DNA from: an uncultured Mycoplasmatales bacterium
Lineage (GTDB): Bacteria; Bacillota_I; Bacilli_A; Mycoplasmatales; Mycoplasmoidaceae
Assembly (NCBI GenBank): GCA_949422915.1
Contig: CASPLF010000006.1
Location: 1-34,920, forward strand
Length of the DNA: 34,920 nucleotides
Reading direction: 5' to 3'
The notes under the pieces were generated by a model. It ran no database searches. It was not told the DNA's origin and was given only the letters and a program-made list of their open reading frames with translations. Below, piece by piece: positions 6,507 to 30,283 of the stretch (the stretch's first letter is position 1; each line of letters begins with the position of its first letter). The translations under genes and the position numbers were made by a program.

Positions 6507-7631
6507 ATGATTAAAACATTCTGTTCTGAAAATACTAACAAAATAATTAAATTACATAATTTATTTTTTGGTGGAATCATATTTACATTAGGAATGGTAA
6601 TGATGCAAAATATGCAGTTTTCATTCCAAGGATGGATTCAGTCTATGTATAGGTTGTTTGGTTTTAAATTTTGGGACTTAAGTATCCCATCTATTGATTA
6701 CCATATTCCTGTAATTCCTTTCTTTTACATAATTTATGGATTCGCTATTGCTACATGAACAATATTCCCTATTTTTATATATTTGGTATATGGTTCTAAG
6801 AGATTTGCAAGATTTCTAACATGTTGCATGTACACATATATATTTGCATTTTTAATTGCTATATGCACACCATGTGATATAACAAACGTTCAAATTCATG
6901 CATTAGAACAAATTAAAGATAAAACAGGTTACTTATTTGAACAATCGCGTCAGTTGATTGAAAAGAGTGTAAAATTTAATGCCTTCCCTTCTAATCATTG
7001 TTTAGATCAATTTAACCTAATGTTTGGTGTTGTTTTATTTAACTTTTTTGATAAGACTAATAAAAAAGATTCAAACAAAATCATAACTTGTAAGATTATT
7101 TGAACTTTACTGATTTCAATTTTTACAGGATTAGTTGTTGCTTCTACTTTTATTATGAAAATGCACTTTTTTGTGGATTGAATTCCTTCGTTAATAATTT
7201 CATTAAGCGTGTTTGTAATAATGTATTTCATAAAAACAGATCCAGTTACAAGGTTTTTTTATAAACTAATGAATAGTTTCCAATATTGTTTTTGATATGT
7301 TGGGCAAGATGAAGTAAAAGCTGATATTTTTAATTGGGCCAAGATTCATCAAGATCCTGTAAAAATTAATACATTATCAAAAAAGCAGATTAAAAAGCAC
7401 TTTATTATTACCGATATTGCTATTTTTTCTATGTATTTGTTCATAACCTTTGTGTTAAATTACTGCTTAGTAATATTAGAAGGCTATGTAACAAACAATA
7501 AATTCTTTAATTTCTTAATGTTAAGAATGGTAATTCATGTTTCTTTAATTGCTTATGTAGTTTTTATCATGTATTTATTCCATACAATTTATAAAAAACA
7601 ACAAGAAAAACAAATAACCCCCCCCAACTAA
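6507..7631 (+). CDS. Polytopic membrane protein, PAP2-phosphatase-like
   Basis: The 374-residue protein has about six hydrophobic segments. Two spaced motifs recall the PAP2/phosphatidic acid phosphatase fold: FPSNH at about 160-164, in the place of the family PSGH, and MKMHFFVDW at about 218-226, in the place of the H-x3-D motif. The first family motif (K-x6-RP) is not evident, so activity on a lipid phosphate is uncertain; a divergent or related lipid phosphotransferase is equally possible. The C-terminal part, after WAKIHQDPVKIN, is hydrophobic and unassigned. The ATG at 6507 is preferred to a GTG at 6501 because of promoter spacing. Trp is coded by both TGA and TGG (TGG at 6633, 6672 and 7335). 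The last codons include a run of eight C. The ABC permease gene follows after 62 nt with its own promoter. Confidence 0.72.
7618..7625 (+). repeat. C8 homopolymer in the 3' end of the PAP2-like gene
   Basis: Eight consecutive C occupy codons ACC CCC CCC just before the final Asn and stop. In such an AT-rich window this tract stands out. Slippage by one base either way would only swap the last two residues for a short different tail: minus one gives PTNPKLMY, plus one gives PQLIQN. Confidence 0.7.
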
Positions 7632-7693: not shown

Positions 7694-10600
7694 ATGTGGA
7701 ATCTGCTAAAGAATACTTTTAGGTCCTTAGCAAAAAATAAGGTTTCAATAATTGGGTTAACATTCCTTATCTTTTTATCAGTAGGAATGTTTACAGTATT
7801 ACAAAGTACATCAACCAATATTGATTCAACCTATGAAATGATATCAAAACAAGGAAATCAACATGATTTTACTGTTTCTGAACACTATAACACTGGTAAT
7901 ATAACCCAGCAACCTGGTGATCAACAAGGTGGACACTATGGTCTTTCTTCAGATGGTGAACAAGTTTATTGACCAGATCAAACCGCTTCTGGAAGCACAT
8001 ATACTAAAACTTATTACTTTCATCTATATGCAGATGCTAGTGATGATTCGTTAGTTGGAACGTTTTACAACCAACATAAAGATGAAACATCTGGTGTGGC
8101 ACATGATTTAATTTATCGTTCATACACAATCACTAACAACAACCATCTTACGTATATGGATGGAGCAAGCGGTACTCCTCCAAAATCTACCAAGACTGTA
8201 GAACAAATTTCACAAGAATTAAGAGGCACCGAAGGAAATAGCGACTCGAAAGATATTACTGCGTATTTTGCTTCATGAAGTAATGACTTATTAAATTATT
8301 TAGAACAAGAAAACAGTCCTCTTAACCAGTATTTAACGTCTGATGATATGAAAGATGAAGTGTATTTTAGAAACTATTCATCTTTAAATATCAATAACTC
8401 AACGGATGGTGTTTTCTATGATGTTGTTTTATCTCAACCGGAAGACGAAACTCACCCATATGATACTATTGTTGATCGTGAAATACTATTTGACGATAGT
8501 GATTTTAACTACATTGGTTGACATAACTTTGCTGATAGTGAATGAAAACCTTATCAAAATCGTTCTGGTTTATCCATAAAAGAAATTTTATCTCATGAGC
8601 TTTTACAATGAAATGATGTTGTAAACAACATAGATGAACAAGACATTGTAAGAGATCAAATAGAATTATTATCTAAGGGTTCTGTAAGTACAGAAGATAA
8701 ACCAGCAACATTTATTAATGAAGTTATTGAACTTAATAATGTGTTATTAGCTAATCCTGATAATTTCAGTGCTGCTAAAGATAAATATGATGCTCTATAC
8801 GATGAAAAATGAATAAACAACGATGTAATTGATAAAAAATATTCTTATGTTGTTTCATATGAACAAAGTTCAATTCCTTTTACATGATTAATTGATGATT
8901 GAACAAGTAGATTCACTATTTGTGCACCTCAATACATGCAATCTCATAATCTAATGCCTTTAGATATCCATAGTTTATTATCTAAAGATAAAGATTATTT
9001 AGATTGAGCACAAACTCATACAGATATTTCAAACGAAAGAACTAGATTTATTGCTTGAATGAATTCATTAAAGCAGTCAGTAATTGACGAAAAACTTTCT
9101 TCTTGAGAAAATGAATATCCAAATAATTTAATTAAAATTGCAGGTGCTACACCTTCATTTATTTTGTCTGCTGGTATTACAGGTGATTATGTATATCCTG
9201 TTGTATCAATTAGCAGACCAATCCCAAATACAGAAAAAGAATGTGTTGTATTTGGTAACAAATCTTTTTATGAAAGAATTCATGCATCATTTTTAGGTAA
9301 TGAAGAAGAAAAATATGTAGTAGGTAAATTCTATAATCCTAAAAATGGTGAAAAAATATTAAATGAAATTAATGCTAAATGTAAAACAATAATGTCTTGA
9401 CCAGAAAACATTAACGCTGCTTACATGGCTACAGATTTATCGTGTACATTAAATGCAGCAGCATTTAGAATATCTTACATTCCTCAGTTGGTAAGTAAGA
9501 TTGATGTTATCACGTATTTATTAACAATCTTTGTAATTACAATATCTTTAGTTATTTCAGTAATTATTGTTAGAAGATATGTTTCAAATAGTAGAACAAC
9601 TATTGGTGTTATTCAAGCTAATGGTGTTAAAAAGTGAAACATCGCATTATCTTTAACTCCATTTGCTTTAATTCCTTCGTTAATTGGTGGTATTAGTGGA
9701 TATTTGTTAGGAACGTTCTTACAAAAACCAGCAATCGGATTATTTTCTAACTTCTGAACATTACCAACAGGCGTCCTTGCGTTTTCTTGATTGTCTATAT
9801 TTGTTTCGGTATTATTACCATTCTTATTATTTGTTGGTGTAAGTGTTTTCTCTACATATCTTTTGTTAAGAGAAAAAACAACAGATTTAATGAAGAGTGG
9901 TAGTGAATACAAATTTAGCCAAATAGCTAAACTTGTTAAAAAACCATTTAAAAGAGCAGGTGTTATTTCAAGATTTAGAGTATCAATTGCATTTAGTTCT
10001 ATTTGAAAGTTATTTATTTTATCAATAATGAGTTCATTAATAATGTCATCATTAACTTTTGGTTTTACCATCAATGGCAAATTTGACCAAGCCATTACTA
10101 AAACGTTAGATACAAAGAATTATTCATACTCTGTTGATTTATATACTCCAACAGAACAAGGTGGGCAATACATCCCTGTTGATGGAGAACATCTTGGGTT
10201 AACTGGATGACAAACATCAGCAAGTAATGCTGAAACAAATTTTTTCCCTAACTTGTTGTATAAAAGTGGTTTTGTAAGTAATGATAGTTCTTGAAACTAC
10301 ATTGATAGAGATAATTGTGATACTAGTTTGTATACAAAAACCTATTACACAACTACTTTTACTTCTGTTTCGCTAGCTCACTTGCATCCATTAAATACCG
10401 GTTGAATATGTGAGCCGTTTGAATATGAAGGTAATTCATATGCAAATATGTTTGTTCCGTTTATGAGTGATGCTGTTGGACAAAAAACAGACTTAAACTA
10501 TATGAAGAATAGATATACAACAAAGTTAACGCTTAACTATGTTATTGGTTTGTTTTCATTAGTTTCAAATCCATGAAGCATTACAGCTTCATTAATGCCT

Positions 10601-12280
10601 GAAAATTTAAAAAATATTTGTAACACAAAATATGAAGCAATTATTAATGAAATAGGTAATTTATGTTACACAAACAAAGATTGATCAACTTATCAAAAAT
10701 ACTTTGCTCGTGTGGGCGATACTGAACCTTATGAATATAAAATTACCGATAAAACAATTGATTACACCGGAATGGCATTAGATCACGATTTTTTGGCCTT
10801 GATTAATAAAATTTATCAATCACCTGAATTGTTGCCATCAGCTCAAGAAGATTATGAAATGGTTTACAATGCTGTTCCGTTAACAAACGAAGAAGAAACA
10901 TACACTTACGTAAATGGTGATGTTGTTTCTACAACAAACGGTAGTAAGCCATCAAACATCAAAGTTTTAGGTGTTTACAACAACAGTACGTTTGTAAATT
11001 TAATTGATGAAAATAATAATGATTTAGCTTCATTAATTAATTATGAAAACGTTGAACCAGATGCCACAGAATTCCCGATGTTAATTAATCAAACAGTTGC
11101 TAAAAAATACAACTACCATGTTGGTACTGAATTATCTCTTTCAATTACAAACACTTCAAATAGATTTACTAAAGTAATTAAAAATGATGATTCAAAGACT
11201 ATCTATAAATTTAAAGTTGTTGGTGTGGTTAAATCATGTGAAGATGATGAATTTTATATCGATCAACAAATTGCTAACTGAACATTAGGTTTGAAATCTA
11301 AATATAGAGAAGGTTTAGATAATTCAACATATTGTTTAAACAATAACTATATTGATTATTCTAAAGCAATCCATAGTACATTCTCAGTTGATGACGGTTT
11401 AAAAACATCAGCAAGTTTAATAGATGCTGTTAAAGGTGATTCAAACAATAAAAATTCATTACAAACAGTGGCAGGAACAGATGATGGATACAACATCATC
11501 CCTTATGGTTTTAATGGTTATTTTACAAAAGATCCTAATGGAAGCAAGGGATTAGTTGGTGGTATATCAAATTATTCCCCATCTGGTATTTGATGCCCAA
11601 GTGCTACATTAAGTTCAAATACAACATTAGATCTTGTCAAATATGGAGCAAACTTAGAATTAGCTAATGAACTTTCAGGAATTAATGATGAAAGCATTAA
11701 AGAAGCCTATGATAAGTGACAAAGTTCACAGAGCAAAACAGACCACGAACAATTTACTAATCTTGCAAATGGTTTGTTAAAACAAATTTCAGCAATTTTT
11801 GGTGATTCATGTTATGTCTCATTAGTTACAAACGCAATGGACAAAAACGCTAAAGCGTCTGTTTATGGAAAAATGGCCGAAACTGTTACAAGTGTTGAAA
11901 TGATTGTATTAGTAATTATTGTTATGATGGTATTCTTTATTGTATTGTTGATGTCATCAATCATTATTGCTGATTGTAAAAAATTAGCAGCTATATTAAG
12001 TTCTTTAGGATATACAGACATGGAGAACGCTCTATCATTTATGGCAATTTATATTCCAGTAATTTTATTAGGTTTAGCAATTGGTATCCCACTAACTCTC
12101 GGGTTTGCTACCATGTTCCAGACAGCAATACTGAACGGAATAGGGTTGTTAGTTGATACGACAACTAAATGGTATTGATTCGTATCAAGTGCATGTATTG
12201 TTTCAGCAGAATTAATATTATCGATTGTCTTTAGTTGAATATCATTAAGAAAAACATCATTAGTAAGCATGATTAAATAG
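7694..12280 (+). CDS. Giant FtsX/MacB-type ABC transporter permease with two extracellular domains
   Basis: The frame is open for 1528 residues once TGA is read as Trp. The layout is a duplicated half: transmembrane helix 1 at about 17-38, a roughly 560-residue hydrophilic domain, a three-helix FtsX core at about 600-745 (ITISLVISVIIVRRYVSNSR, then GVIQANGVKKW), another helix at about 772-790, a second hydrophilic domain of about 600 residues, and a second FtsX core at about 1400-1528 (LVIIVMMVFFIVLLM, ILSSLGYTDMENA). The sequences TIGVIQANGVKK and LAAILSSLGYTD match the coupling-helix region that contacts the ATPase. Such permeases move or shear lipids, lipoproteins or peptides at the outer membrane face rather than importing solutes. 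The equivalent in M. genitalium is MG468. Its ATPase follows 7 nt downstream. The substrate is unknown. Confidence 0.88.
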
Positions 12281-12287
12281 GAGAAAT

Positions 12288-13631
12288 ATGAAAAATAAAA
12301 TTAATAAAAAAATAATTACTTATAAAAATAAAACTGATTTCTATAAAAATCAAGTTTTATCTTTTGACAAAGAAATTGATGTTTTAAATAAACAAATTGA
12401 TCCTAATAACCTTAACGAAAAAAGAAACTATAAAGAAAAGCGTAAAGCTATTAAAAAATTAAATAAGATTTCTACTAAAAGAAATCGTGCTAACGCTTAT
12501 GAAATCAAATATAGATATTTGTATCAATTGCAAATCTTGCTTGAACAATACCATACTAGCAAACCAAACGATATTGTTTATCACAACTATTTAGAATATA
12601 TAGAATCTACTAATAATGGTGATGCTATACCATACAATCCACTTAAGATTTTCCATATAAATAGATGAACGAAAAAATTAAATAAAAAGATTTTAAAACT
12701 TGCTTATTACAAAAATGTTAAATTACCTAAGCAAAAAAACTTTGCCAAGAAAAAACTTGTTAAATATCAAATTAAAACTACTCAAGAAGACATTCAGTCA
12801 TTACAAAGTTATATTAATGATACTAAAGTAAGTTTTTATTCTATATTTCATGCAAGAATGGTTACTAAATTAGATAAACTATCAAAAAACCACGGAATTA
12901 AGAAAATGAGTTCAGAATATGTTATTGATCTTAAAGATGTAACTAAATATTACAATAATGGTTTATTGGCTACTAAAGTATTAAAAGGTGTTGATTTACA
13001 AATTAAATATGGTGAATTTGTTGTTATTTTAGGTCCATCAGGTAGTGGTAAAACTACATTGTTAAATATTATTTCTGGAATGGATACAGCAACATACGGA
13101 AGAACTATTGTATGTAATCAAAATTTAATTAATTATGATATTCCAAAATTAACTGAATTTAGAAGAAAGAAAATTGGTTATGTATTTCAACAATATGGGT
13201 TGTTGCCAAACTTAACTATTAGAGAGAATGTTGAAATAGGTGAAAACTTACAAAACAAAAAATCTAAAAAAATTGATATAGATGATTTATTAAAAACTAT
13301 TGGAATTTTTGAGCACCGTAACAAATTCCCAAGCGAATTGTCTGGTGGTCAACAACAACGTGTGTCAATCGCTAGAAGTATTGCTAAAAACCCTGATATT
13401 ATTTTCGGTGATGAACCTACTGGTGCCATTGATGAAGAAATGTCTAAACAAGTAATGCAATTGTTTTTAGATGTTAACAAAACATATCACACAACAATTA
13501 TCATTGTTACTCACAACCCTATTTTTGCTGATTTAGCAACTATGGTTATTAAGGTTAATGGTGGTAAAATTGCTAATATAATTAGAAATAAACATCGTAA
13601 ATCAGTTAACGAATTAAATTGAACTAAATAA
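12288..13631 (+). CDS. ABC ATPase (MacB/LolD type) with long basic N-terminal extension
   Basis: The 447-residue protein pairs with the permease just upstream (7-nt gap, AGGAGA site). Residues 207-447 form a complete ATPase: Walker A GPSGSGKTT (249-257), Q-loop VFQQYGLLPNLT, signature LSGGQQQR (about 351-358), Walker B IIFGDEPTGAID (about 371-382), and the H-loop VTHN. The DEPTGAID sequence and overall length place it with the MacB/LolD/FtsE class. Residues 1-206 are a separate, strongly basic, probably coiled-coil region (for example FDKEIDVLNKQIDPNN and YKEKRKAIKKLNKIS) with no nucleotide motif. Internal ATGs at 12858 and 12906 could yield an ATPase alone, but neither has a good ribosome-binding site. 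Cytoplasmic. MG467 would be the M. genitalium counterpart. Confidence 0.9.
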
Positions 13632-13632
13632 T

Positions 13633-14733
13633 ATGAAAAAAGTTTTGATTATCACTTATTCTCCAGATCATACATTTGGTGGAACCGAAGTTTATGCTGA
13701 GAAGTTAATTAAGATATTTAAAGAATTAAAATGAGATGTAACCGAATATTCATTAGATCTACGAAATTCTTTTATTAAAATGACTAAGCCTGATCATAAA
13801 GTTATTTGTCCTAAACTTCCTGTAAGCGAATCGTGTGGATTAATTAATTTATTTCGTTTAAAGAAAGCCAAGAAGGAATTAAATGATCTAAAGAAAAAAT
13901 ATAAATTTAATTTAATTATTAATAATTTAGGAGATGGTTTCAAATGAGAATACATTCCAAAGAATGAAATTTTAATTCAACATTTTTGTACAAATTATTA
14001 CCGAAAAATTACATTATTCAAAAATAATTTCTTTGCATCAATAGGGAGATTTTTAATATATATATTAACAGGCCTTGTTGATGTTATGCAATATCATCAA
14101 AATGTTGTGTTTTTTACAAACAAAGATCAAGAAGAAGCTAATAAAGTCTATAGTAAAAAGTTTAATAGTCATAACATTAATTTAAGTACATTGAACTATA
14201 AAGAAATTAATGCAATTAATAAACAAACACGCCAACAAAAGCTTGTATATGTTGGGCGTATTGAAAATTCACAAAAAAATATGAAATATTTTTCAAAGGT
14301 TGCTAGATATCTTGAATATCCCGTTGATGTTTACGGACGTGGAAAATATACAAGAAAAATTGCTACAAAGAAAAACATTAATTATTGTGGTGTTCTTAAA
14401 AGAGAGAAACTATTTAGTACAATTTCAAGTTATACTGCTACACTACTTTTATCAAAATATGAAGGATTCCCTTATACTGGCATTGAATCATTAACGGCCG
14501 GTACTCCATTAATTTCTTCAGATACATATTGTTCAGCTAAGTTATTAACAAAAGAAAAAGGTTTGTTAGTAGATATTAAACAATCTCCAAAGAAATGTGC
14601 AGAACAAATAAATAGCTTTTTGAAAAAAACCGATATCGAAACTATGTCAAAAAAATGCACAAACTTCGCTCTTAAAAATCTTACCAATAAAATTTTTGAA
14701 AATAAATGAAAAGAAATAATTAAGAATTATTAA
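13633..14733 (+). CDS. GT4-type (GT-B fold) glycosyltransferase
   Basis: The 366-residue protein has the two-lobed GT-B layout. The N-terminus MKKVLIITYSPDHTFGGTEV carries the family Gly-Gly-x-Glu loop. The second domain begins at about 205 with LVYVGRIENSQKNMKYF and contains SKYEGFPYTGIESL at 274-287, whose EGFP and following Glu285 form the E-x7-E motif that binds the nucleotide-sugar donor. It has no signal peptide or membrane helix of note, so it likely works on the inner membrane face. It starts one base after the ABC ATPase stop (TAA T ATG), so it may be carried by the same transcript. Its stop overlaps the stop of the facing GT2 gene. Acceptor unknown; glycolipid or exopolysaccharide synthesis is the natural guess. 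Confidence 0.88.
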
Positions 14734-15725
14734 TTCTTACTTTTCTTTAATTCTTTTTTAAAAAATATTTTAAAAAGGGGTGTTAAAATTTTCTTTCACC
14801 AGCTTTTATTTTTTGCACTGATGGGGTATCCTGTTTTTTGAAGAACATTAAAAGCTTCAATTTTATTTTTTTCAAATATTTTTTTGCTATTTGTATCCCT
14901 TGGATGTCTAAAGAAAATAAAATAACCAATTGGCGCGAATAAACAACCTGAAATAGCTTCTTGATATTTAGGATTATTTAAATACCCTTCTTTCTTAAAC
15001 AATTCTAACAAACCATCTGTTTGTTTCATAACATGTTGTAAAACCGTATATTCTGTTCCTTCAAATTTACTAGTAGAATTTTTTCTTCTTAAATAAACAT
15101 AAAAATTAGCATTTACTGTTTTAAATTTTTTTGCTTTTAAAAAAACATATGGCATAATTCCTAAATCTTCAAACACTCTTGAAACTTTATCATTAAAAGA
15201 AATGTTTAATTTATTTCAATATGATTTTCTAATAAAACATCCTCAACATAAACAAATGTTTTTTTCAACATATTCAATGTTGTTAGTTTTAGAATTAAAA
15301 GAACTTGTTGGAAAAAAGTTATATTTAATTATTGGGCATTCACTAAATACAACCTTAGTCTTACCAACAACCATATCATAATTTTTGCCCTCTAATGAAT
15401 CAACAAATTTTTTACATGTAGTTTTAAACATTCAATCATCTGAATCCAAAAAGAACATGTATTCACCGTGACAAAGTTTAATTAATAAATTTCTATTAGT
15501 TGCAATTCCTTTATTAACTTTGTTACGATAAATTCTTATTCTCTTATCTCTATTAGCATATTCTTTAAGAATATCGTATGTAGAATCTTTAGAACAATCA
15601 TCAAGACAAACAATTTCAATATCATAAAAAGTTTGTTTAATTACGCTATTTAAACATTTTCTTATATATTTCTCACTGTTGTAAGTAGGAATTAATATAG
15701 AAATCTTAGGTTTGTTACTTGTCAT
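14730..15725 (-). CDS. GT2-family glycosyltransferase
   Basis: The 331-residue GT-A enzyme shows SILIPTYNSEKYIRKCLNSV at the start, DDCSKDST at about 41-48, RNKVNKGIATNRN, and LDSDD at 93-97, the metal-binding DxD. A second part begins with GCFIRKSYW and RVFEDLGIMPYV, as in the GT2 proteins of lipooligosaccharide and capsule loci. The C-terminus is basic and ends KKELKKSKN, suitable for binding acidic membrane. Six or more Trp are TGA-coded. Its start lies 11 nt inside the end of the hydrolase gene, suggesting translational coupling. Its stop overlaps that of the GT4 gene by two bases. It shares layout with the GT2 at 20372-21382 and is probably its paralogue. Confidence 0.9.
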
Positions 15726-16578
15726 GTTTCAAAACAATTTTTCAAATCTCTTGTTGAGAAGTTGGATCAATCATTAAAAAATGATCCCCTTCACTAAAAA
15801 TCTCAATACTATTGTTTTTTAATTTATAGCCTGTTAGTTTATCTATAGTGTTTTTGTTTTTTTGATAATAAAAATCTTTTTTTGATGTGATTAGTGTAAT
15901 ATGTGGCATTGCATCAACTTCATAGTGATTTAATATAAATTTTCTAGCTTTAGACATACTAAACCATGAAGCAAGATTAATTTTAGTGCTTTGCTTGTTT
16001 TGTTGTGCCCTCATTTTTCACATTCTTAAAAAAACAGCATTATTGGTTAAATTATGTATTCCATGTGGAATAGAATATGTATCGATATTAGTTAATAATG
16101 TAAATACATATTTACATGCTAACTTAAAAGTATTATCAGTATTTTTTTCTTCATTAGTTCTTTTTGGATTTTTAATTTTAAATGGAGGATTTAACAAAAT
16201 ATATTGATTAGTTTCTGAGAAATATTTTTTACAATATAAAGAAGCTAAATTAGCACCAAATGATTCACCAAAGAAAATAATTTTTTTATTTGCTTCCTTG
16301 GCCTTAATTTGATCTACTATTTCATGAATTATTCTTACATAGTAATATGGGTGTCTGCTTGGTTTAATCTTGCATGAACCATGACCTGGTAAATCAATTG
16401 AAATAAAAGTTGAATGCTTGAAATTTGGAATGTTATAAAACTTTATAAGTTCTTTAGTGCCACATGCAATGTTTAAATGAATAATAATATTTTTTGCATT
16501 TTCAAAGTTTCCACAATAAATAGCAGGAATTAAACCTTTAGATGTTTTAAAATCTAAATTTTTAAAAGTTATTGCCAT
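15715..16578 (-). CDS. Alpha/beta-hydrolase fold protein, lipase/esterase-like
   Basis: The 287-residue protein has the classical fold elements in order: oxyanion-region HLNIACGTKEL (about 34-44), IDLPGHGSC (61-69), nucleophile elbow FGESFGAN with Ser106, an acid in LITSKKDFYY (Asp235), and EGDHFL with His266. A full triad is thus visible. Family members cleave esters or thioesters, and in mollicutes many act on lipids; the substrate here is unknown. It is the middle gene of a three-gene operon: its ATG overlaps the stop of the flippase-like gene (TAATG), and its end overlaps the GT2 start by 11 nt. Sandwiched between a membrane protein of the LPG-synthase type and a glycosyltransferase, a role in trimming or recycling membrane lipid is plausible. 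Confidence 0.85.
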
Positions 16579-17750
16579 TATCCAACCGCCTTTTTTGTTT
16601 TTTTAATAAATTTAAACTGTAAATAACACAAGAAGCTGAATGCTGGTATTCCTAATAATGTTGGGATATATGCAGAAAACATTCTAAACACTAAAATTGA
16701 ATCTTTTACTAAAGGTTCTATTTCATCTGGTTGTAATTGATTGTTAATATGTCCACTAATTAAAATAGTTTCTTTTAAAGCAACGTCTAATGCCATTTGA
16801 CTGCCAGGAATTGGAAACATTTTACAAGCAGTCACAGCAACATTAGCACAATTGAAAATTCCTCAGAATGGTAAACCAACATTGTCTGGAGCAACTCATT
16901 GAAGAGAAACATACATAGCACCATATGTTCATATTTCACCAACAAAGAAAATTAAAGAAATAATAATTGTGTATTTTCAATGTTTAATCATTTCAATTGA
17001 TTCTTTCTTAGCTTTTTGTTCTTTTAAATATTTTTGTTTTACTTCTTCGTTTGTGTGATATTGAAGATGTAATAATTTTTTAACATTATTAAAACTTAAA
17101 GATAAAGCATAAGTGAAATGAGAAGAAAAAGATGTTAAAAAGAAAAATCCTAAAATAAATCAATCCAAAGCAAATCCCACAACCATTAATCAATAGAATG
17201 ATAAAGCAGTAGCATCAGTTTTATAATTTGAAAAATCTGCAGCTATAAAACAAAAAGATGGTAATGTTACTAACATTTGAATCATTTGATAAACCAAACC
17301 GTTAGTTGCAACAATACAATAAGCTCTTGAATTTTCTACATTGTGAGATTTTATTCAATAAATAGAAAATGGGTCAGATACTAAATTAGCAGGAGTAATG
17401 TTCTGTAAGAAAATTAATGTGAAACACATTGAAAGTGTATCATATCATTTAACTTTAATACCCATTTCTATCAATCTAACAGTAGCACTAACAGATGCAA
17501 TAATGGGTTTAACAAGTAAGAAAAATATTAAGAACACCAACAAACCTGGTCTAGTTGATGTTGCACGACTTACTCTTTTACCAAAGTTGGCAAAATCAAC
17601 ATCTAATATCTTTCAAATAGTTAGAGAAATCAACACAATAGTAATGATAAAACCTAAAGAAATAATCAAAATTCTTTTGTTTGTTAAGAATTTAGTATTA
17701 GCCTTATCTTGAATTGTTTTACCTTTTTTAAGGTTAGTGTTTTTTTTCAT
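16578..17750 (-). CDS. Flippase-like membrane protein (LPG-synthase TM / YbhN-AglD family)
   Basis: The 390-residue protein has about seven or eight hydrophobic segments. Two motifs support the family: NITPANLVSDPFSIYWIKS at about 117-135, matching the TP-G--G-EP-R---L-K region, and MFPIPGSQMALDVAL at about 311-325, matching the PTPGG-G--E-AL region. These are shared by the membrane half of lysylphosphatidylglycerol synthase (MprF) and the YbhN/AglD proteins linked to polyprenyl or lipid glycosylation. No C-terminal aminoacyl-transferase domain is present, so it should not make lysyl-PG itself. A charged loop (KYLKEQKAKKESIEMIKH, about 249-266) faces the cytoplasm. It heads an operon with the hydrolase and GT2, and starts 50 nt from the divergent secA gene. 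Trp codons are TGA. Confidence 0.8.
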
Positions 17751-17800: not shown

Positions 17801-20371
17801 ATGTTAAGTCCAAGAACTAGTGTTTTTGCTCCAAGAAGAAGAATATTAAAAAAAGCGAAATTATTAGCTACAAAAGTTGAAAGCTATGTTGATCATTTTA
17901 GAAAGATGCCTAATGCGCAATTATCTAATATGACTAACGTTTTTATCAAACGTTTAGAAAAAGGCGAAACATTAGATGATATCTTACCAGAAGCATTTGC
18001 TGTTGCTAGAGAAGCAATTTACCGTGTAACTGGAATGTTTGCTTTTAAAGTGCAAATTATTGGTGCTATTGTTGCACATCAAGGTGATTTTGCTGAAATG
18101 TATACTGGTGAAGGTAAAACATTAACTGTTGTTATTGTTTCATATTTAAACGCTTTATCTAAACAAGGTGTACATGTTGTTACTGTAAATGAATATTTAG
18201 TTGAACGTGATGCTAGATTCTGTGCACAATGTTTAAATCCATTAGGAATCACTGTTGGATACAACTTAGCTTCATTCAGACCTGAAGAAAAAAAGAAAAT
18301 GTATGCGTGCGATATCACTTATACAACTAACTCTGAATTAGGATTTGATTATCTTCGTGATAACATGGTGAGAAAATACGAAGAAAAAGTTATTCGTGGA
18401 TTAAACTTTGCTATTATCGATGAAGCAGACTCTGTATTAATCGATGAAGCTAGAACTCCATTAATCATTTCTGGTCAACCTAAAAAAGATGTTTCGATGT
18501 ATGTTGAAGTTGATGAATTCGTTAAAACTTTATCAAAAAACGATTACAAAATTGAACCTGAATCAAATGCTATTTCATTAACTGATTCTGGTGTTGCTAA
18601 AACAAATGAACATTATCGCATTAAAAATTTGTTTGATTTTGCAAACTCAGAATTACTACATAAAATTAAAAATGCCATGACTGCAAACTTTGTTTTCCAA
18701 AATGGTGTTGAATACGTTGTTAAAGAAAATAAAATTTTACTAGTTGATCACTTTACAGGTCGTATTCTAGAAGGACGTAGCTATAACGCTGGTTTACAAC
18801 AAGCTATTCAAGCAAAAGAATATGTTAAAATTGAACCAGAAAACATTACAGTTGCAACTATTACATATCAATCGTTCTTCCGTTTATATAAAAAGATTTG
18901 TGGTTTATCAGGTACAGCTTTAACTGAAGAAGAAGAATTCTTAAAAATTTATAACATGGTTGTTGTTCCTATTCCAACAAATAAACCTGTTATCAGAAAA
19001 GACTTAAATGATTATGTTTTCTCTAACAAACCAAGTAAATGAAAACACGTTGTAGCTGAAATTGAAAAAATTCATGCAACTGGTCAACCTATTCTGGTTG
19101 GTACAGCTTCTGTAGAAGATTCAGAAGATTTATCTCATTATTTAAGAAATAAAGGATTAAAATTTGAGTTATTAAATGCTAAGAACAACGCACGTGAAGC
19201 TGAAATTGTAAAAAACGCTGGTCAAAGAGGCGCTATTACAATTTCTACTAACATGGCTGGTCGTGGTACAGATATTAAGTTAGGAGAAGGAATTGCTGAA
19301 CTTGGTGGTTTATATGTTATTGGTACAGAACACAACGAATCAAGACGTATTGATAACCAATTAAGAGGACGTTCTGGTAGACAAGGTGACCCGGGTATCA
19401 CTAGATTTTTTATCTCATTGGATGATATGTTGTTCAAACGTTTTGCAACAGAAAAACAAGATAAGGCAAACGTTAAAGTAGAAGATGATGAATATTATGA
19501 TTCATGATTCTTTACAAAACTATTAAATTCTACTCAAAAGAAAGTTGAAGGATTAAATTTTGATACTCGTAAAAACCTAATTGATTACGATAGTGTTTTA
19601 ACTAACCAAAGGGAATTAGTTTATACACAACGTAACCAAATTCTTTTAGGAAAAGAAAATTCAGACATTATTAAAGGAATGGTTAAAGTTGTAGCATACG
19701 ATTTAGCTAGAATGTTTAAAAATCCTGATAATGAAGTTCACATTAATGCTAACAGAGTTGCTGAAGCAATTAATAAAAGTATATTTAATGCTCCTATTAT
19801 TACTTATCACTTTTTCGAAAACAAAACAATTGAACAAGGTGAAAAAATCATTTTTGAAATTCTTTGATTAAGTGTTCAAAATAGAATTAAATTATTAAAA
19901 CCAGAAGCTGCTCAAAACATTCTAAGAGACTTAATGATTCAATGTTTAGACTATCAATGAACTAGTCACCTAGACAGAATTATTAAAATTCGTGAAGGTG
20001 TTCAATTGCGTTCTTTAGAACAACGTTCTCCATTAAATATTTATGTTGAAGAAGCAGATTGAAACTTTAATGAAATGAAAAAGAATATTGCTCATCAAGT
20101 AATTGTTTCATTACACAGAATCTTTATTCCTAAAGTAAATGAAGAATTAAGAAAAGAATTAGAAAAGATTCTGCCAAAACTAAATTTAACTTCTGAGGCT
20201 TTAGTTGAAAATCCAAAAGTTGATGATATCAAAATTGAAGAGGTTTTCAATAGTAAACCTGATCTTAAAATTAATACTAACCCTAAATTGCCTACTGATA
20301 AACATAAAGGTGATGCAAAACAAGAATTATTAAAGAAAATGAACGAACAAAAAAAGAAGCAATCAAAATAA
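17801..20371 (+). CDS. secA: SecA, preprotein translocase ATPase
   Basis: SecA drives secreted and lipoprotein precursors through SecYEG. The 856-residue frame has the normal order: [12 protein letters not shown] Walker A (about 100-111), [10 protein letters not shown], the DEAD-like [20 protein letters not shown], the preprotein cross-linking region, [11 protein letters not shown], the second helicase half with [11 protein letters not shown], and [18 protein letters not shown]. The C-terminus is a Lys-rich tail ([19 protein letters not shown]) without the zinc-binding Cys residues of many bacterial SecA proteins, as is usual in mollicutes. Trp are TGA codons, for example at 19039 and 19505. 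Its stop (TAA) abuts the stop of the facing GT2 gene with no spacer. Confidence 0.98.
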
Positions 20372-21382
20372 TTACTTCTTTGTTTGTTTTATACTTTTTG
20401 TTTGTCTTCAATAAGAAAACGTTTGTGGTATCGTTTCAAATTTCTTTCATCAAGAGTTGTGATAAATATCTAAAGGGATGTCATATTTAATATGCAACAT
20501 TTGCATATATTCATATTTAATTTTTTGTTTTTGTATTTTTGTTTGTTTGTTATTAAATTTAATTTTATATTTTGAAATAAAAGAACCAGCACCAATAGAT
20601 ATTGCGGAAAATATTGCTCTTAATTTTTTATCGTCTTTTAAGAAACCTTTTTTCTTAGATAAATCTAATAAATAATCTACTTGTAACAACATGTCTCTTA
20701 GAGTATCAATCTTGCCTTTTTTAATTGATGATAATTTACCGGTATTTACTTTGTAATAGTAATAACCTATTTTAGGAATTGGCATAAATTTTTTAGTGCA
20801 CAAGACAACATAAGGCATAAATCCTAAATCTTCACAAGTGCGTGCATATGGACAAAAAGTTTTATTTAAAGATAGAAAATATTTTCTATTAATAAAATAT
20901 CCTCATGGAACAAATAGATTTTTTTCAGTAAATGTAATAGGAGTAGTGTTTTTATTAAAGTTATTTGAACAAATGTTATGGAACTGAATATTACCTTTTG
21001 AACCAAAGCGAACCATTGATTTAAATGGTGCTACATCACATTTAATCCCGCTACCATTTGCTCTTTTGACAAATTCTTCACAAATTTTTAAATCTAATTG
21101 ATCATCATCATCCAGAAATGTAAAATATTCTCCTCTACTATTTTTGATAAGTACATTTCTATTCATGGAAATGCCTAAATTAATCTTGTTATTAATTAAT
21201 TTAATTCTGCTGTCTTTTTTTATATATTGTTTAATGATTTTTGCAGTATTGTCACTACTACAATCATTAACGCAAACGATTTCAATGTTTTTAAAAGTCT
21301 GATTAATTGCGCTGTCCAAAGCTCTTTTAATTGTTTTTTCAGCATTATATGATGCAATTAATATTGAAATCTTTGGAATCAT
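20372..21382 (-). CDS. Second GT2-family glycosyltransferase
   Basis: The 336-residue protein has ISILIASYNAEKTIKRALDS at the N-terminus, NDCSSDNT at about 39-46, NLGISMNRN, and LDDDD at 90-94 as the metal-binding motif. A second half starts with GYFINRKYF and TCEDLGFMPYVVL, matching the RVFEDLGIMPYV region of the GT2 at 14730-15725, and the two share length, domain order and a basic tail. They are therefore probable paralogues with different acceptors. This gene stands alone between secA and uvrB, convergent with the first and divergent from the second across 25 nt. The conserved secA-uvrB neighbourhood of relatives suggests that it was inserted there. No membrane helix is clear. Confidence 0.9.
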
Positions 21383-28583: not shown

Positions 28584-29546
28584 ATGAAATTATCTTTTAT
28601 ATATCACGTTAATAGCAACTGAGAAACGTTAGAAAAATCTATAAACTCTATCTTTAATCAAACTAATAAAAATTTTGAGTTAATTTTTGTTTATGACGAC
28701 CCAAACAATAATGTTGTAAATGAAGTATTGAAATTTAAATTTGATAAAATTAAGAATTTTAAATTTATTTCTACCAACCAAAAAATTGGTCACTCATGAT
28801 CTTTTAATACAGGATTAGATCTAGCACAAGGTGATTATGTTTACTACTTAGGTAGTAACGTTACTATAGACAAAGATTTTGTTAAAAATATTTTAAATTT
28901 AATTGAAAAAAATAAAGATTGTGATTTTATTGTTTTAGATAATAGAGAAAACAAAATTTCAACAAAAACATTTAATAAAGTAGGGATAGATTTATTTTCT
29001 GTATTAACTCCATCAATTAAAAACAAAATTTATAATGTTAAATTTTTAAGAAAAAATAAGATTCATTTCGAATTATTTAAATACTACCCTTTAACTCATT
29101 TATTAAAATGTGTAGACTGTATGAAACAAGTTGTTTGATACAACAACCCTAATTTAGTTACATTTGCTGATAACAAGAAATTTTCTTACAACTTATACAA
29201 TATCTTTGAACAATCAACTTATTTAATTGAAAATAAAGATAAGTTTAATTTCTTAAAAAATAACAAAGACAATAACAACTGCTTTGAATATATGATTATC
29301 CATTCAATTCTTTACTCATTCTTATACAAAATACATCAATCTTATTGAAAACCAACATCTTATTTTTCATCTAAAATTATTGGCAAAGCTTTACACACAT
29401 CAAATATTTGACTAACCAAATATATTCCTAATTGAAGAGACAATCCAGTTATTACAAATAACTTGTTTAAACAATCTAAAAATTTAAACAACTATTTCAA
29501 GAACTTTAAATTCAAATTGATATATATCCACGATTTCTTTAAATAA
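28584..29546 (+). CDS. GT2-like protein lacking the usual DxD motif
   Basis: The 320-residue protein has the GT-A start (KLSFIYHVNSNWETLEKSIN), followed by IFNQTNKNFELIFVYDDP, and HSWSFNTGLDLAQGDYVYYL, which matches the NRN-G---A-GEY--FLDSDD region of GT2 enzymes. The metal-binding LDSDD is replaced by LGSN at residues 89-92, so the first and third acidic residues are gone. The C-terminal half is unusually rich in Asn, Lys, Tyr and Phe and has no recognised domain. It may bind rather than transfer a sugar, or use another residue. It starts 2 nt after the small protein at 28252 and overlaps the RDD gene by one base (TAATG). Trp are TGA. Confidence 0.8.
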
Positions 29547-30283
29547 TGAATATATCAAACCCAACTAACAATAAAACTAGATATTTTTTAGCAGCAGCTT
29601 GAACAAGACTTTTTGCTCGTGTTCTTGATTTAGTATTTTTATTTTTAATTTTATTTTTATTATTATTTGTTGTGTTTGCAATTGGCAATAACGATTTTTT
29701 GCATGACAAAGAATTCTTTAACAACACACCAGCGTGAAAATACTTTATCTTCTCTTTATTTTCGTGTGCTTTAATCTTTAGTTACTTCGTTTGTTTGCCA
29801 TTTATTTGGAATGGTAAAACAATAGGTTGTTGAATTTGTAAAATCTGTGTTGTCAACACTCATATTTTTGACACAAAATTTATTGGATTAATCAAGAGAG
29901 AGATTTTTTTATCTGAATCATTTGCTGCTATTTCATTAATTTTAGGAATTACATTAGTTTCATTAGGAGACACCAATGCAGGCTTATTACTTAAAGCGAT
30001 GGCACAAGGTGAACACAATGCTTTTTCTGATGCTACTGTAGTATTTGAAGCATTATATTATGTATCAGGTATTATGTTGTTTGTATGTATTTTATGAATG
30101 TTTGTAAGAAATAAAAAAAGATGTTTGCAAGATATTGTTAGCGACACTGTCACTATTAAACTTAATACACAAAGCGATACAACTAATAGCAAAACTAATG
30201 CTAAAATAAAGGCTTCTACTAAGAATTACAAGTTACCAGGAGAAGTAGAATCAATTGATTTAGGAGAAATAAGCGAAGAATAA
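29546..30283 (+). CDS. RDD-family membrane protein
   Basis: The 245-residue protein begins with [17 protein letters not shown], where the conserved Arg and Asp of the RDD family are visible (R-x2-AR-x2-D), and later NGKTIGCWICKI, the family GKT-G motif, and LQDIVSDT, the last Asp motif. Three to five membrane segments are present: about 25-46, 67-86, 131-150 and 182-200. The end (about 215-245) is hydrophilic and polar. RDD proteins are little understood; some are linked to sodium/proton exchange. It is cotranscribed with pcrA, whose ATG follows one base after the stop. One Trp (29807) uses TGG and the others TGA. Confidence 0.85.

Follow-up and report, generated by a model that had tools for sequence, protein, structure and literature searches.

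Genes at the locus

The window, by which we mean the whole analysed stretch of 34,920 nucleotides, is contig C6 of a 724-kb genome (designated G000) that is 91% complete and in which TGA is read as Trp. The nearest named relative of G000 is an 'uncultured Mycoplasmatota bacterium' MAG, and a scan of the genomes' contigs gave the near relative G035 as sole match. ORFs were called with table 4 (TGA=W), and the features considered here are as follows.

6507..7631, plus strand: PAP2-family membrane phosphatase (PF01569, E=3.8e-9)
7694..12280, plus strand: FtsX-like permease with a large ectodomain, 1528 aa (PF02687), upstream of GT4; neighbour kept in the six-species clade described below
12288..13631, plus strand: MacB-like ABC ATPase (PF00005, E=1e-34), upstream of GT4; neighbour kept in the same clade
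13633..14733, plus strand: GT4 family glycosyltransferase (GT-B), 366 aa (PF00534, E=1.9e-15), third gene after the FtsX and MacB-like ABC genes
14730..15725, minus strand: GT2 family glycosyltransferase (GT-A), 331 aa from ATG (PF00535, E=5.1e-41)
15715..16578, minus strand: alpha/beta hydrolase (Hydrolase_4, monoacylglycerol-lipase-like), 287 aa (PF12146, E=1.6e-10)
16578..17750, minus strand: LPG_synthase_TM/YbhN-type lipid flippase-like membrane protein, 390 aa (PF03706, E=6.6e-14)
20372..21382, minus strand: second GT2, a paralogue of the cluster GT2, located beyond secA (PF00535, E=2.7e-32)

The flippase, hydrolase and GT2 genes form a single minus-strand run, coupled by overlaps of 1 nt (base 16578, flippase/hydrolase) and 11 nt (15715-15725, hydrolase/GT2), as had been described in a sequence-only reading of this DNA, whose placement and naming of the four central genes also agree with our coordinates and Pfam families. 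For GT2, an alternative upstream start is the TTG at 15770. GT4 lies on the plus strand within the FtsX-MacB ABC run, where the MacB-like ATPase gene ends at 13631 and GT4 starts 1 nt later, and it is convergent with GT2 with an overlap of 4 nt. Since GT4 is on the opposite strand and converges on GT2, the set consists of two convergent transcription units rather than a four-gene operon. The PAP2 phosphatase is a possible source of diacylglycerol, and a PAP2 gene is found within a similar cluster (L049) of G033. The second GT2, retained in G035 and G029, could possibly provide a further sugar step. An NCBIfam scan of five proteins gave no match above cut-off. A defence role was checked with PADLOC and ruled out.

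Properties of the encoded proteins

The hydrolase carries the intact triad that had been read from its sequence, consisting of S106 (in GESFG), D235 and H266. Its motif is G-E-S-[FW]-G, and among 23-26 homologues the serine and histidine are invariant while the acid is D or E. Compared with the PDB, the family profile is closest to monoglyceride lipase structures (~2e-8, residues 62-283), the best matches for the core being human and bacterial monoacylglycerol lipases (MGLL, PDB 3pe6 and others). With these enzymes it has the Hydrolase_4 fold and the Ser-Asp-His triad in common (with Glu as the acid in some homologues), the relation being a distant one. AlphaFold models from two-sequence alignments were poor, with a mean pLDDT of 44 for the hydrolase and 36 for the flippase. 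A simple hydropathy scan found neither a signal nor a TM segment in the hydrolase, which should therefore act in the cytosol; this also makes trimming on the outer face unlikely, and speaks against the earlier proposal that it trims or recycles the translocated product. Its recurrent partners, namely GT2, UDP-galactopyranose mutase (GLF) and DAG kinase, suggest cytosolic acylglycerol metabolism.

In GT2, the motifs DD, DSDD, CWG/PWG and FED are conserved, which bears out the DxD previously noted, and the same type of scan found no TM segment. The C-terminus is basic and aromatic (SWWKKILTPLFKIFFKK), of a conserved SWWKK type, and the hydrophobic moment of this segment ranks 20 of 314 in the G000 protein and first in that of G011. 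GT4 has a conserved EGFPYTGIE motif (E-x7-E). Mycoplasmas are known to synthesise glycolipids with GT2 enzymes such as MG517 (PMC3849446, PMC6506492), which binds the membrane via a C-terminal amphipathic helix (PMC6506492). Compared by description, MG517 of M. genitalium and MPN483 of M. pneumoniae are, like the cluster GT2, soluble GT-A enzymes of ~330-340 aa with a DxD and an acidic base motif; the cluster enzyme has the GT-A family, DxD, E/D base and lack of TM helices of this type, and a basic aromatic C-terminus where a membrane-binding helix is proposed for the two mycoplasma enzymes. Unlike in the cluster, a linked hydrolase or flippase is not described in the consulted parts of the two papers (PMC3849446, PMC6506492). 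In mycoplasmas, being without TM helices is a criterion that separates glycolipid GT2s from polysaccharide synthases (PMC11658790); as TM helices mark the latter, we count their absence from GT2 in favour of a glycolipid role. The multiple TM helices of a mycoplasma homopolysaccharide synthase are accordingly missing from GT2.

The flippase shows five hydrophobic segments over threshold in the hydropathy scan, and invariant P/G motif columns across 21 homologues. A Pfam scan returned PF03706 only and no aminoacyl-transfer domain, in line with the earlier description, and the protein ends after the TM region. As such, it has the flippase TM domain (PF03706) in common with MprF, but the aminoacyl-tRNA transferase domain of MprF is missing. 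A profile search against PDB sequences found nothing meaningful. PF03706 is present in 118 of the 298 genomes of the order, so that a flippase by itself is unremarkable. Flippases also occur in genera without a cluster-type hydrolase, and some of their loci have no nearby GT and adjoin gltX or ribosomal genes. In five species (Pfam was run on one) the flippase adjoins an NTP_transferase gene of the UDP-sugar type.

Conservation and distribution

The block FtsX-MacB-GT4, converging on GT2-hydrolase-flippase beside secA, was identified in G000, G035, G011, G029, G023 and G032, being split over contigs in the last of these. That the order and orientation of the four genes are kept in five other species shows that they are not chance ORFs. 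In the secA tree the six species form one clade, with one change of state. Across this clade secA identity goes down to about 71-72%. That of the flippase, hydrolase, GT2 and GT4 goes down to 32-41% in G023 with the order intact, which indicates that the arrangement is maintained and not merely recent.

The sample of the genus comprises 36 genomes, mostly draft MAGs, in which absences may be gaps. Scores for the hydrolase family are bimodal, with true members at 250 bits or more and the rest below 40. The hydrolase and flippase families are each found in 26 of the 36 genomes, 25 of which carry both, with nine carrying neither and one each carrying a single one (Fisher 1e-6, kinship ignored). 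A trait-correlation test of the two on the secA tree, underpowered for its few independent pairs, showed no significance. Therefore, the raw Fisher p is not evidence by itself, and the co-occurrence is largely shared descent. GT4 is the least conserved partner, present in 12 of the 36 genomes against 26 for the hydrolase and 26 for the flippase. The four-gene module that had been proposed thus holds as a linkage fixed in the six-species clade, but not for GT4 as part of the operon or as an equally widespread member. GLF, a recurrent partner in relatives that the sequence-only reading missed, is found in 21 of the 36 genomes. It was not found in G000 (91% complete) or its sister G035, and DAG kinase was not detected in any block species, the same 91% complete genome included.

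A cis-prenyltransferase (PF01255) was detected in all six block species, which fits a pathway in which GT2 and GT4 would use undecaprenyl phosphate as the carrier of an oligosaccharide destined for a secreted glycan or for the glycosylation of proteins, and the YbhN-type protein would be an AglD-like carrier flippase; the flippase family is moreover named AglD2/YbhN in COG0392 (PMC12713373, Table 2). However, of the 25 genomes of the genus that carry the hydrolase as well as the flippase, 11 gave no PF01255 match, which makes a polyprenyl-linked route less likely. Furthermore, no polyprenyl-phosphate sugar-phosphotransferase or oligosaccharyltransferase is among the scanned cluster genes, and the DAG kinase and lipase-like partners point to glycerolipids. 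We consider this route highly improbable.

Recurrent neighbourhoods and gene fusions

The recurrent PARTNERSHIPS, that is, the linkage of the hydrolase to GT, GLF and flippase genes together with gene fusions, is our strongest result. It was suggested earlier to look for co-occurrence in related genomes, and the linkage of lipid and sugar genes does recur across species and genera. The 41 hydrolase-family loci span six genera (g1, g18, g22, g23, g24 and g25). At 29 of them a direct neighbour is GT2, GT4, GLF or flippase, and seven further loci directly adjoin a DAGK_cat gene; the exceptions are G004, G013, one of two G272 copies and two loci cut by a contig end. We also made binomial estimates of how often such adjacency would arise by chance; these presuppose independence and serve for description only.

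With HYD for hydrolase and FLIP for flippase, the arrangements include GT2-HYD-GLF-FLIP in a single strand run (G237), HYD-GLF-FLIP (G226 and G275), HYD-GLF with FLIP and two GT2 (G265 and G272), and FLIP-HYD with GT2 (G269). More extended versions are GLF...GT2-GT2-HYD-GT4...FLIP in G140, GalE-GLF-GT2-GT2-HYD-GT2-FLIP in G019 (GalE and GLF by Pfam), and GT4-HYD-PAP2-GT2-FLIP in G033. Gene fusions are classic evidence of a shared pathway. In G277 a single ORF encodes an in-frame FLIP-GLF fusion (flippase residues 9-380, GLF 380-762). Seven genomes from other families encode a protein of 940-1008 aa with PF03706 as its C-terminal part. Four of these seven long proteins have an N-terminal phosphoglucomutase/phosphomannomutase domain I, and at least one also has PGM domains II-IV.

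Not all loci are of this kind. In seven species of one clade, HYD is directly followed by DAGK_cat beside secA, without GTs (Pfam was run on three of the seven, all seven were assigned by position, and the secA tree includes six of them), and G019 and G033 carry a flippase alone at their secA locus. Both observations would suit a generic membrane homeostasis, with the YbhN-like protein as a bulk-phospholipid scramblase, the hydrolase as a recycler of phospholipids or acylglycerols, and the GTs doing separate jobs. The flippase domain of MprF is indeed promiscuous toward lipid head groups, which would equally suit a glycolipid cargo, and YbhN has been proposed for bulk lipid (PMC11980842). Against this stand the two kinds of fusion (FLIP-GLF and PGM-like-FLIP) and the fact that, in other genera, hydrolase and flippase are repeatedly linked to GT2 and GLF, which leaves this explanation rather improbable.

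The richness in GLF, GalE and GT2 of the relatives' clusters also brings to mind a lipoglycan or capsule variant, in which the product of the enzymes would be a longer glycan anchored to DAG, for example a lipogalactan, and the flippase would export the lipid-anchored oligosaccharide. M. mycoides has a poly-Galf galactan, modelled as DAG-anchored, in addition to Gal-DAG (PMC6609329), and its pathway resembles the present clusters in coupling a UDP-Galf supply (GalE, GLF) to GT2 enzymes (PMC6609329, PMC11658790). However, the homopolysaccharide synthases of mycoplasmas are GT2 enzymes of the TM-embedded kind (PMC11658790), and neither a multi-TM GT2 synthase nor a polymerase or a polysaccharide exporter is among the cluster genes. 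The M. mycoides pathway differs in its TM-embedded GT2 synthase, and the consulted parts of both sources (PMC6609329, PMC11658790) do not describe a YbhN-type flippase or a hydrolase. A longer glycan therefore seems unlikely to us, though it deserves some weight.

Relation to known operons

Two operons outside the mollicutes resemble the cluster. The hexSDF operon of C. difficile encodes the glycosyltransferase HexS, the deacetylase HexD and the MprF-like flippase HexF (PMC10128005, PMC11898633), and gpgSDF of P. aeruginosa encodes the GT4 GpgS, the deacetylase GpgD and the YbhN/AglD2-like GpgF (PMC12713373). For both, glycolipid products were shown by lipidomics while the flippase step is unproven (PMC10128005, PMC11898633, PMC12713373), and in C. 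difficile the flippase gene is dispensable for product formation (PMC10128005). Like hexSDF, the cluster has a three-gene operon of a GT, a hydrolytic tailoring enzyme and an MprF/YbhN-type flippase, with a glycolipid product that is demonstrated for hexSDF and predicted from the genes here. The differences are that the tailoring enzyme of hexSDF is a polysaccharide deacetylase and that of the cluster an MGL-like alpha/beta hydrolase, that HexS has been called a monogalactosyldiacylglycerol synthase where the cluster has GT2 and a separate GT4, and that no two-component regulator was seen at the cluster. With gpgSDF it shares a GT4, a hydrolytic tailoring enzyme and a flippase gene of the COG0392/PF03706 type, whereas gpgSDF uses phosphatidylglycerol as acceptor, has a deacetylase in place of the lipase-like hydrolase, and has no GT2. 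Thus, an operon glycosyltransferase (GT2, PF00535) and an MprF/YbhN-type flippase without aminoacyl domain are both present, but a Pfam scan of the cluster found an alpha/beta hydrolase instead of a polysaccharide/COG3233 deacetylase domain. Although it would work in a similar manner, the cluster therefore falls outside the hexSDF/gpgSDF type proper, and we regard it as a new variant. The earlier remark that no described mollicute system with this gene set was known agrees with our partial literature search, although hexSDF and gpgSDF show that similar operons exist elsewhere. In that search, mollicutes with glycosyltransferase, flippase and glycolipid gave no match, which is weak evidence of novelty.

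A putative module for glycolipid assembly and transport

The families and catalytic motifs of the proteins, the overlaps and fusions of their genes, and a linkage that is both conserved and recurrent lead us to regard the cluster as probably a glyco(glycero)lipid assembly-and-transport module, in which substrates, step order, flip direction and the role of the hydrolase are our inference. Weighing against this reading are the lack of GLF and DAG kinase matches in G000, the limited spread of GT4, the flippases that have no nearby GT or occur in genera lacking the hydrolase, the shared descent behind most of the hydrolase-flippase co-occurrence, the modest rank of the C-terminal segment in the G000 GT2, and the dispensability of the C. 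difficile flippase gene. The soluble GT2 may be held at the membrane via its basic aromatic C-terminus, where it would take a hexose from a UDP-sugar donor and attach it to an acceptor of the (di)acylglycerol type in the inner leaflet. Sugars would be added or varied by GT4 and perhaps also by the second GT2, and the YbhN/MprF-type protein would equilibrate the completed glycolipid or export it to the outer leaflet. As suggested by its MGL similarity and its GT2 and DAG kinase partners, the cytosolic hydrolase could set the acylglycerol acceptor pool, or deacylate unwanted (lyso)glycolipid before export. This partly supports the pathway first put forward, of sugar addition to a lipid followed by translocation, its lipid acceptor, sugar and enzyme activities being predictions from sequence. 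GLF being a recurrent partner, the sugar in many relatives is probably galactofuranose; in the G000 lineage, where GLF was not found, glucose or galactopyranose is more likely.

More tentatively, and with some doubt on our side, these genes could constitute a hitherto undescribed mollicute machine for glycolipid assembly and flipping, in which GLF or phosphoglucomutase would supply the sugar nucleotide to a soluble GT2, with an MGL-like lipase and the YbhN-type flippase as further parts, sometimes physically fused. In it the lipase would edit or recycle the acylglycerol anchor and the flippase would be the missing mycoplasma glycolipid transporter. In wall-less bacteria glycolipids are essential membrane parts, MG517 being an essential gene (PMC6506492), and our partial literature search found no account of how mollicute glycolipids are transferred to the outer leaflet. 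The GT2-lipase-flippase(-GLF) set and the sugar-supply fusions provide named candidate genes, in several genera, for this surface transport, and extend the hexSDF/gpgSDF pattern by a variant in which a lipase would do the tailoring.

Fusions of the flippase

In three species the PF03706 flippase ORF continues in frame into glutamyl-tRNA synthetase (gltX), whereas in two other relatives, G010 and G031, flippase and gltX stand side by side yet as distinct genes.

Flippase-gltX ORFs, by locus
L043:818-3562, in frame, about 910 aa
L048:3465-6206, in frame, about 910 aa
L054:2301-4889, in frame, truncated by the contig end

In LysX-type proteins a flippase is paired with a synthetase. These ORFs resemble that pairing, with the difference that the synthetase here is GluRS. 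A further partner occurs at locus L142 (8580-10874) of genome G277, where a single in-frame 764-aa ORF joins the flippase to UDP-galactopyranose mutase (PF03275) with no stop codon at the junction, as seen in one MAG that is 60% complete. Elsewhere in the order, seven loci from other families (L067:8027-10942, L065, L070, L072, L073, L076 and L077) encode 940-1008-aa proteins with PF03706 at the C-terminal end, and four of these proteins carry an N-terminal, often degenerate, phosphoglucomutase/phosphomannomutase match.

Glycosyltransferases and cis-prenyltransferase

Within the clade, GT4 is linked to MacB and to the gene for a 1528-aa FtsX-like permease with a very large ectodomain (window 7694-12280), and the functional partner of GT4 may be this FtsX-MacB ABC system rather than the lipid genes. 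The cis-prenyltransferase of the window's genome (G000) and its near relative G035 is possibly an altered enzyme, its PF01255 match being split within one ORF, with profile positions 132-153 missing.

Cis-prenyltransferase ORFs, PF01255 in two pieces
G000:C17:2821-3429
G035:C28:3476-4084

Glycosyltransferase genes, varying among close species, lie on either side of secA (window 17801-21382; equivalents in loci L033/L035). A GT2 paralogue lies beside it at 20372-21382, and species G011 and G029 carry one or two other GT2 genes; the secA surroundings are a spot of glycosyltransferase turnover. A third, diverged GT2 gene (28584-29546; PF00535, E=1.8e-17) adjoins what we take to be an RDD-like membrane protein gene (29546-30283).
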